Source: Deltaproteobacteria bacterium (GTDB taxonomy: Bacteria > Bdellovibrionota > Bdellovibrionia > Bdellovibrionales > JAMPXM01). From it: a DNA stretch of 64,000 nt. The translations under genes were made by a program, and so were the position numbers. A model generated the notes under the pieces. That model searched no databases. It was not told the DNA's origin and saw only the letters and a list, made by a program, of their open reading frames with translations. Of the stretch, positions 5,391 to 7,528 are shown piece after piece (position 1 is the first letter of the stretch; each line of letters opens with the position of its first letter). The stretch is taken from assembly GCA_017302795.1 (NCBI GenBank), contig JAFLCB010000008.1:124001-188000 (forward strand), written 5' to 3'.

Positions 5391-7358
5391 ATGCGATCGG
5401 GTCAAAAAGCAATGGCGTTGTGGATCTTCCTTATCGTCATTTTTATTGTTTTGTTTCAAAACTACACGTCGCCGCGTGCGTCTTCGGTTTCAGGGTTTAA
5501 CTTTGCAAAACTCGAACAGGCGTTGAAGGACGGTAAAATTCTATCCGTTACCTTTTTGAAAAGTACCGGGCAGATTAAAGGCGAAATAAAACCGGAGTTC
5601 GAAAAGGAATTCAACGGCAAACAGTTTCAAATTCCTGGCAACACGGACGATTCCGGTTTTGCTTTGATGCAGAAGTACAATATCACGCCGAATTACGAGA
5701 GCGAAGACTCAGGGCTAATGCAATCGCTTCTGATAAATTGGTTACCGGTTTTATTTCTAGTCGGGATCGTCATGCTCTTCATGCGCCAAATTCAAGTAGG
5801 CGGTGGTAAAGCCATGAGCTTCGGAAAAAGTAAGCACAAGGTTCTGACGGAGAATAAACACAAGGTGACGTTTGCGGACGTTGCTGGCGTTGAAGAAGCA
5901 AAAGATGATCTCATCGAAATAGTTCAGTTCCTGAAAGATCCTAAAAAGTTCACAAAGCTCGGCGGGCGAATTCCAAAAGGCGTGCTTTTGGTCGGTCCTC
6001 CGGGCACAGGCAAAACTCTTCTTGCGCGCGCAGTTGCAGGAGAAGCAGGAGTTCCGTTTTTCACGATCTCCGGTTCGGACTTTGTCGAAATGTTTGTAGG
6101 TGTCGGAGCCTCGCGAGTTCGCGATCTCTTCGAGCAAGGAAAAAGAAATGCTCCTTGTTTGATATTCATTGATGAGATCGACGCCGTGGGACGTCATCGC
6201 GGTGCTGGAATGGGTGGCGGTCACGATGAACGCGAGCAAACTTTGAATCAAATGCTTGTCGAGATGGATGGCTTCGAGTCCAGTGAAGGCGTCATACTGA
6301 TTGCGGCGACGAACCGTCCAGACGTGCTGGATCCGGCGCTTTTGCGTCCAGGTCGATTTGATCGTCGCGTGGTTGTGAACAAACCGGACGTTGCTGGTCG
6401 TCGAAAAATTTTGGATGTCCATTCCCGCAAGACACCCGTCGCAAGTGATGTTGATCTTGATCGAGTCGCACGCGGTACGCCCGGATTCGCCGGGGCTGAT
6501 TTGGAAAATCTCGTCAACGAAGCAGCGCTGAATGCGGCGCGCACGGGAAAATCAAAATTGACGATGGAAGACTTCGAGTTCGCTCGAGACAAAGTCATGA
6601 TGGGTGCCGAACGGAAGTCGATGGTCATTTCGGAAGAAGAAAAGAAGAACACAGCTTTTCACGAGGCTGGTCATGCGCTTGTCAATAAGATGCAGCCGAA
6701 GACAGATCCGATTCACAAGGTGACGATCATTCCTCGCGGTATGGCATTGGGTTTGACGATGATGCTGCCGGAGAAAGATCGTTTAAGTTTTTCGAAGTCC
6801 CAAGCGGAAAGTGAGATCGCTGTTCTCTTTGGCGGCCGCGCTGCTGAAGAACTTGTCTTCACGGATTACACCACTGGTGCAGGCAACGATATCGAGCGTG
6901 CGACGGAAATTGCTCGCCGTATGGTATGTGAATGGGGCATGTCGAACCTTGGGCCACTGGCCTACGAGAAGCGCGAAGGTCCGGTCTTCTTAGGCATGCA
7001 GCAAGGTGGAAGTCGCGAATACTCCGAAGCAAAGGCCGAGGAGATCGATAAGGAAGTTTACCGAATCGCCAACACCGGTTACGAAAAAGCGAAGCAGATT
7101 CTTCGCGATAATCGCGATGCCCTTGACCGAATGGCGAAAGCGCTTCTCGAGCTTGAGACGATTGACGGTGCAGAAGTCGACCGTCTGATCAAGGGGAGCA
7201 CATGGGAAGATTTGAAACGTGACCGAAGTGATCGCGGGGCTGGTCTTCAGGCAGAACTTGATTTAGCAGCGAAAGAGCAAAAGGAAAAAGAGGACAAGGA
7301 AGAAGCTGAGGCGGCCGGAGCAACTCCGAACCCCTTCAGCAAGCCAGCACCAGCATAA
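5391..7358 (+). CDS. ftsH: ATP-dependent zinc metalloprotease FtsH
   Basis: A 655-residue membrane AAA+ protease. Two hydrophobic segments (about residues 6-24 and 106-125) bracket a small periplasmic domain. The AAA domain shows Walker A GPPGTGKT near residue 202, Walker B FIDEID near 262 and the second region of homology [18 protein letters not shown]; the M41 protease domain has HEAGH at about 424-428. The acidic Lys/Glu-rich tail ends in a Pro-rich end. FtsH degrades misfolded membrane proteins and regulators such as LpxC. ATG at 5391 has a good GGAGG site 8 bases upstream. A strong hairpin follows the stop. Confidence 0.97.
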
Positions 7359-7366
7359 CGATTGAA

Positions 7367-7391
7367 TGAGCCGCGCAAGAGACGCGGCTCA
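7367..7391 (+). terminator. Hairpin after ftsH
   Basis: A perfect 9-bp stem, TGAGCCGCG (7367-7375) with CGCGGCTCA (7383-7391) and a 7-base loop, starts 8 bases after the ftsH stop. No long T tract follows, so it may terminate weakly or stabilise the 3' end of the ftsH message. It abuts the two REP-like units. Confidence 0.6.
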
Positions 7392-7393
7392 AC

Positions 7394-7445
7394 TCTTTCG
7401 ATGCCGCTGCATCGAAAGCAGCGGCGCCCAGAGGGCGAAGCGACA
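7394..7445 (+). repeat. REP-like double-hairpin unit, copy 1
   Basis: A 52-base unit with two hairpins. The first is CTTTCGATGC, loop CGCT, GCATCGAAAG (perfect 10-bp stem). The second is CGCCC, loop AGA, GGGCG (5-bp stem). It ends in AGCGACA. It is repeated in full 62 bases downstream with one paired change in the second stem. It lies in the gap between ftsH and cdaA and is probably transcribed. Confidence 0.8.
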
Positions 7446-7455
7446 TCCTAAAAAG

Positions 7456-7507
7456 TCTTTCGATGCCCCTGCATCGAAAGCAGCGAAGGCCAGAGGCCGT
7501 AGCGACA
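7456..7507 (+). repeat. REP-like double-hairpin unit, copy 2
   Basis: Second copy of the 52-base unit, same orientation. The first stem is identical (CTTTCGATGC/GCATCGAAAG) with loop CCCT. The second is GGCC, AGA loop, GGCC: the third pair from the loop is G-C instead of C-G in copy 1, a compensatory change. It ends 21 bases before the chosen cdaA GTG start, so a folded RNA here would sit just upstream of that ribosome site. Confidence 0.8.
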
Positions 7508-7528
7508 CAAGCAGATGGGGCACGAGAA

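Follow-up and report, generated by a model that had tools for sequence, protein, structure and literature searches.

A genus-restricted, REP-like family of two-hairpin repeats in uncultured Bdellovibrionota, with a tandem array between ftsH and cdaA

Results and discussion

Two hairpin units in the spacer between ftsH and cdaA

The window, a stretch of 64,000 nt of contig JAFLCB010000008.1 from an uncultured member of the Bdellovibrionota (the source genome), carries ftsH and the c-di-AMP synthase gene cdaA, and the spacer between them holds two repeat units in direct orientation with a period of 62 nt (Table 1). A preliminary description of this DNA had reported tandem 52-base units, of which the tandem arrangement and the shared direction proved real, but the core unit is 51 nt long. 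With the flanking bases included (7391–7445 and 7453–7507), the copies are 87% identical over 55 nt and lie 62 nt apart. Both units have the same layout, consisting of a first hairpin with a 10-bp stem (S1, CTTTCGATGC/GCATCGAAAG), the dinucleotide CA, a second hairpin (S2) and a GACA tag. The S1 stem is identical in the two units, as had been described, and the second stem with an AGA loop is likewise present in both, although this stem in fact has nine positions. The compensatory change reported earlier is also there: the inner stem of S2, GCCC-AGA-GGGC in the first unit, is GGCC-AGA-GGCC in the second, a single C-G to G-C swap that leaves the pairing intact.

Table 1. Features of the ftsH–cdaA region (positions within the window)
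Feature	Position	Strand	Description
ftsH	5391..7358	+	AAA and peptidase M41 domains
Hairpin after ftsH	7368..7391	+	GAGCCGCG-CAAGAGA-CGCGGCTC
Unit 1	7395..7445	+	S1-CA-S2-GACA tag; model R2, 70.9 bits
S1 hairpin, unit 1	7395..7418	+	10 bp, 4-nt loop CGCT
S2 hairpin, unit 1	7421..7441	+	GCGGCGCCC-AGA-GGGCGAAGC
Inter-unit spacer	7446..7456	+	TCCTAAAAAGT
Unit 2	7457..7507	+	S1-CA-S2-GACA tag; model R2, 76.6 bits
S1 hairpin, unit 2	7457..7480	+	10 bp, loop CCCT
S2 hairpin, unit 2	7483..7503	+	GC-GAA-GGCC-AGA-GGCC-GTA-GC, GNA/GNA type
Right junction	7508..7514	-	CTGCTTG then TGTC on the minus strand; fits the family flank motif CT-NNNNN-YGTC
cdaA	7529..8323	+	DAC and CdaA_N domains; start GTG 7529 by homology

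When the array was folded as single-stranded DNA, exactly these four hairpins formed, with an energy of -32.8 kcal/mol compared to -18.7 ± 2.8 kcal/mol for shuffled sequences (z = -5.1; none of 200 shuffles was equally stable). Folded as RNA, the S1 arms of unit 1 and unit 2 preferred to pair with each other. The S1 end of the array faces ftsH, and the minus strand of S1 scores as terminator-like. The separate hairpin directly behind ftsH is probably the old terminator of that gene, since G002 and G003 have a terminator-like hairpin at the same place; alternatively, it could be a decayed S2 relic.

As previously noted, 21 bases separate the end of unit 2 from the cdaA start. The longest cdaA reading frame opens further upstream, at an ATG (7463) within S1 of unit 2, so that automatic annotation may add 22 residues to the protein that homology places at the GTG. 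A record titled Streptomyces griseus (CALQIT020000098.1, locus L199) encodes a Bdellovibrio-like CdaA with 66% identity and has probably been mislabelled.

A dispersed repeat family restricted to one genus

The exact S1 pattern occurred 16 times in the source genome, and BLAST added diverged copies. A covariance model search of this genome and its relatives, the check proposed at the outset, was carried out with a model (R1) built from 14 distinct units of the source genome, and gave about 36–40 credible copies in the 4.2 Mb of that genome as well as 6, 53, 5 and 22 matches in four other species of the genus. Outside the genus, R1 found one weak match in one other member of the family and none in 54 further genomes. 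A second model, built from 47 distinct units (alignment A4) and scanned against 144 genomes of the class, was positive in the five of the genus only. The two-hairpin units are a dispersed, genus-restricted repeat family, of which the window holds one two-unit array, and the relatives that carry it are uncultured Bdellovibrionota.

The unit, of about 51 nt, follows the formula AT-[S1]-CA-[S2]-GNCR, and copies stand singly or in direct arrays of two to four units with locus-specific spacers and a period of about 60 nt. One variant has an extra hairpin between S1 and S2 (GAGGGTGAGAGCTTCGAAGGAGCGAGGCTCACCC), a composite form seen at loci L005, L020, L021, L026, L027, L030, L031 and L039. Another has a longer S2 (CTTGGCGGGGCCCTCC...GGAGGGTCGCCAAG); the long form GGCGGG-CCCTCC..GGAGGGT-GCC is common to the source genome (G000) and G002. 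At the end of contig G004:C18 and the start of G004:C19 (L152 and L154), both contigs break inside the same type of array, which probably broke the assembly there, and the two contigs may be neighbours.

REPs are generally defined as short palindromes with many, mostly extragenic copies per genome or genus, and the repeat falls within this definition. The earlier suggestion of a REP-like family with conserved structure is borne out by the dispersed copies, the hairpins, their compensatory changes and the distribution throughout the genus. Searches of Rfam, at the gathering threshold and at E ≤ 1, returned no family for the repeat, only a chance match to RyhB with E = 1, and BLAST against phages and plasmids gave no matches. 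A pattern match on a viral contig (L265) was discarded as a chance occurrence in a phage-like coding region, which the covariance model did not confirm. The literature searched contained no description of the repeat and no paper on Bdellovibrio REPs. The family is real, REP-like and previously undescribed in the literature searched or in Rfam.

Both hairpins are kept by two-sided changes

Across the 47 units, 96.9% of the stem cells were paired, compared to 82% after shuffling and 34–47% when the arms were slid against each other. Changes on both sides were found in 105 cells and changes on one side in 7, two-sided changes affected 11 of the 16 stem pairs, and none of 500 shuffles reached an equally high covariation. 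Matched changes in the two arms preserve both hairpins. Covariation alone is no proof of selection, since arm-to-arm correction of a palindrome could also produce it.

Of the nine positions of the S2 stem, the outer two are pairs, mostly GC/GC or GT/AC, the next three form the middle and the last four are the inner pairs; the loop has 3 nt and usually reads GGA or AGA. In 94 hits, the middle consisted of GNA facing GNA in 70, of a near-GNA form in 6, of three Watson-Crick pairs in 15 and of other combinations in 3; most of the Watson-Crick middles lack a GNA arm. Sheared G-A pairs flanking a free middle base stack well in both DNA and RNA. Such stacking would be confined here to the plus strand, because the minus strand reads TNC facing TNC. 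The interchange of GNA/GNA with Watson-Crick middles suggests that the feature of S2 that counts is an unbroken helix on the plus strand. Moreover, G-T (G-U) intermediates were almost absent from the covariation of the 47 units, which favours DNA over RNA as the folding molecule, although correction between the arms of a palindrome could leave the same shortage.

These data also bear on the idea of a passive tandem palindrome, spread by slippage or recombination and corrected from arm to arm by template switching, with neither selection nor a dedicated enzyme. The near-absence of one-sided changes is what such correction would leave behind, and units are indeed homogenised within a locus, the spacer included. 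However, correction should perfect the palindrome, yet in about 75 of the 94 hits GNA still faces GNA and varies only at its central base, and the Watson-Crick forms of S2 mostly lack the GNA arm expected of a correction product. As the unit moreover occurs at dozens of unrelated loci with a common outer motif, we consider a purely passive origin rather improbable.

Genomic context and insertion sites across species

Apart from true orthologues, repeat-derived frames, Y1 paralogues and a few distant paralogues, no recurrent gene family flanked the repeat, and copies in either orientation neighbour dozens of unrelated genes. A replication-strand bias was not apparent, as judged from mixed orientations on single contigs, where both occur in the same regions.

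At the ftsH–cdaA spacer, the element is absent in G001, G002, G003, G004 and G012, four of them congeners, and two other sites of the source genome look empty in a congener (L064 compared with L131, and L023 with L258). Other junctions are common to species, for example the front of a fliQ-like gene (L154/L167), a tRNA-Leu site (L008/L244), L068/L131, L073/L253 and L027/L164, and at such shared junctions the stems have often diverged yet still pair. At one of the junctions, the copy in the source genome (L008:516) is opposite in orientation to those of two congeners (L163 and L244), so some of the shared sites may be separate insertions. This mixture of empty and shared sites suggests that the family is mobile and that its copies can also persist.

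It had also been proposed that the array may be a cis-regulatory RNA of cdaA. As a riboswitch or attenuator, its leader hairpins would sense a signal and control c-di-AMP synthesis. The position 21 bases upstream of the gene and the strong folding would suit such a role, but a leader element would hardly be expected to be missing from the same spacer in five related genomes while recurring beside dozens of unrelated genes in either direction. Taken with the lack of an Rfam match and the scarcity of G-U intermediates, this makes a cdaA switch highly improbable; the repeat behaves like a small mobile DNA element instead. The array most likely entered the ftsH–cdaA spacer in the lineage of the source species and left the cdaA ribosome site intact, and its influence on cdaA expression, if any, would be incidental. 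As a caution, hairpins that precede a gene of interest may simply be repeats passing through.

Ends of the unit and the motif outside them

Neighbouring genes were called as open reading frames, and frames of at least 100 codons were used in the stop-codon test. A stop codon lay at -3 to 7 nt of the S2 end in 25 of 63 arrays, and within 10 nt of the S1 end in 4 of 63; many copies follow directly behind CTAA or CTAG stop codons. The plus-strand tag at the S2 end was GACA in 48 and GACG in 13 of 67 units, corresponding to TGTC and CGTC (YGTC) on the minus strand. Outside this tag, CT was found at -7 or -6 in 43 of 61 flanks, and anywhere from -7 to -5 in 44 of them, compared to 12.4 ± 3.1 after shuffling. 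The strand carrying the CT is the opposite of the one on which GNA/GNA would stack.

The S1 end was directly preceded by AT in 48 of 53 arrays, and in 23 of the 53 an upstream S2 relic matched the S2 of its own locus at 10 or more of 13 positions. On average, left relics agreed with their own S2 at 9.45 of 13 positions, compared to 8.23 ± 0.13 when loci were permuted, and the arrays may thus be read as S2-(S1-S2)n. In many arrays the inner spacers repeat the few bases that lie just beyond the tag, as tandem duplication would leave them, but the array in the window does not.

The stop codons invite the view that the hairpins, however they spread, act at transcript 3' ends by protecting or terminating mRNA, as has been proposed for some REPs. 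This would agree with the several sites that are common to species and have divergent but paired stems, and in the window with the terminator-like minus strand of S1. In the sense of the gene, however, the S2 middle would be UNC facing UNC, which is expected to form a destabilising loop, while GNA/GNA falls on the antisense strand. A U-run is not consistently present, many arrays lie away from gene 3' ends, and it is the S1 end that the window array turns towards ftsH. A function at 3' ends is therefore regarded as unlikely.

Comparison with known repeat families

The repeat resembles the GTAG REPs and REPINs that are associated with RAYT/TnpA-REP proteins in being a short extragenic hairpin element with tens of copies and tandem clusters, and further in its compensated stem subfamilies, its sites behind genes and the CT outside the hairpin, here a putative cleavage site (PMC3733652, PMC8266576). 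It differs in consisting of two different hairpins in direct order, whereas GTAG REPs and REPINs mostly form inverted pairs, and in lacking a GTAG 5' of the hairpin, GNAG being found only inside the 3' foot of S2 on the plus strand. It also has few G-T pairs and a GNA/GNA middle in S2, and a RAYT gene flanked by repeats was not found.

With the CGTC REPs (CGTC-1 to -4, e.g. dRS3 of Neisseria), the repeat shares a TGTC/CGTC tag, here on the minus strand, directly 5' of a nine-position hairpin; in those families the change from CGTC to TGTC is known and a dedicated transposase is not (PMC3733652). However, the first two stem pairs are GC/GC or GT/AC in the repeat and AT in CGTC REPs, the loop is 3 nt long compared to 4–5, and the TG tail leads into a second hairpin, S1. 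The head-to-tail arrays seen here are negligible in the CGTC families, which mostly form head-head dimers.

The ends of IS200/IS605 elements and their non-autonomous derivatives are likewise single-strand hairpins with a short conserved motif outside them. If the repeat were a miniature form descended from a classical IS200/IS605 element, so that S1 and S2 were remnants of the left and right end hairpins, this would agree with two dissimilar hairpins in fixed order and a conserved dinucleotide outside one end. Yet the surroundings of the Y1 genes examined yielded no full-length parent bearing such ends: in a search for S2-like hairpins, none occurred beside these Y1 genes in 13 genomes, several of them incomplete. 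A second boundary is not defined either, as S2 relics blur the S1 side. Such a descent seems to us decidedly unlikely.

Candidate enzyme and mode of spread

TnpA-REP enzymes cleave at CT, either 5' or 3' of the REP hairpin (PMC8266576), so that a Y1 transposase is the obvious candidate. Three Y1 genes are present in the source genome, and one of the proteins (G000:C3:323298) is RAYT-like, with 56.5 bits on the REP-transposase model, below the cut-off of 80. The search for a RAYT-type transposase called for by the preliminary description thus yielded a gene, but its linkage to the repeats found no support in the family search, the hairpin scan, the model scan or the tree. The single Y1 gene near a copy, at a distance of about 285 nt on G002:C45, is a marginal case in a congener. 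In 53 scanned Y1-bearing loci, GNA-type S2 hairpins appeared only where the locus had been fetched for holding repeats. Y1 genes are common throughout the family whether the repeat is present or absent, and the Y1 tree held no clade both exclusive to the genus and universal in it. It is from the CT motif and a general resemblance that we infer a link between Y1 enzymes and the repeat.

The explanation that we favour, with modest confidence, is that the repeat is a REP-like, non-autonomous mobile element. Its hairpins would form in single-stranded DNA, where an enzyme acting in trans would recognise them; the likeliest candidate is a Y1 (HUH) single-strand transposase of the RAYT/TnpA-REP type. 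Cleavage would take place on the minus strand, at the CT located 6–7 nt 5' of the YGTC tag, in agreement with the frequent position of copies right behind CTAA/CTAG stop codons. The tandem arrays and left S2 relics might then have arisen by repeated insertion at the same place, or by tandem duplication with partial loss. Besides the lack of Y1 linkage, several observations speak against this explanation: no GTAG stands 5' of the hairpin, the CT is on the strand opposite to that of the presumed GNA/GNA stacking, and the mixed orientations show no replication-strand bias. Possible, though on balance doubtful, is a more distinct origin, in which the repeat would represent a separate class of 51-nt hairpin pairs with two unlike single-stranded DNA hairpins and a sheared GNA/GNA middle that Watson-Crick pairs can replace; an enzyme outside the known REP-transposase kind would insert it at CT, directly behind stop codons.

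REP-type repeats are common small repeats of bacterial genomes, and for most REP families we know of no established mechanism of spread. In the present family the covariation is clean, GNA/GNA and Watson-Crick pairs replace each other naturally at one place of a stem, a motif recurs outside the unit, and some sites are shared between species while others are empty. Together, these features make the strand that is read, the enzyme responsible and its site of cutting directly testable for the proposed mobile element.

Two further observations concern the Y1 genes themselves. In G001, two Y1 subfamilies have expanded to 5–6 closely similar copies each (L105, L115, L124, L221 and L222; and L223, L224, L226, L231, L238 and L239), unlike typical RAYTs, which are single-copy. 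In the source genome, a run of GGGATCGGGGATCCGG-like short repeats lies upstream of a Y1 gene on G000:C6 (L041, at about 730–840).
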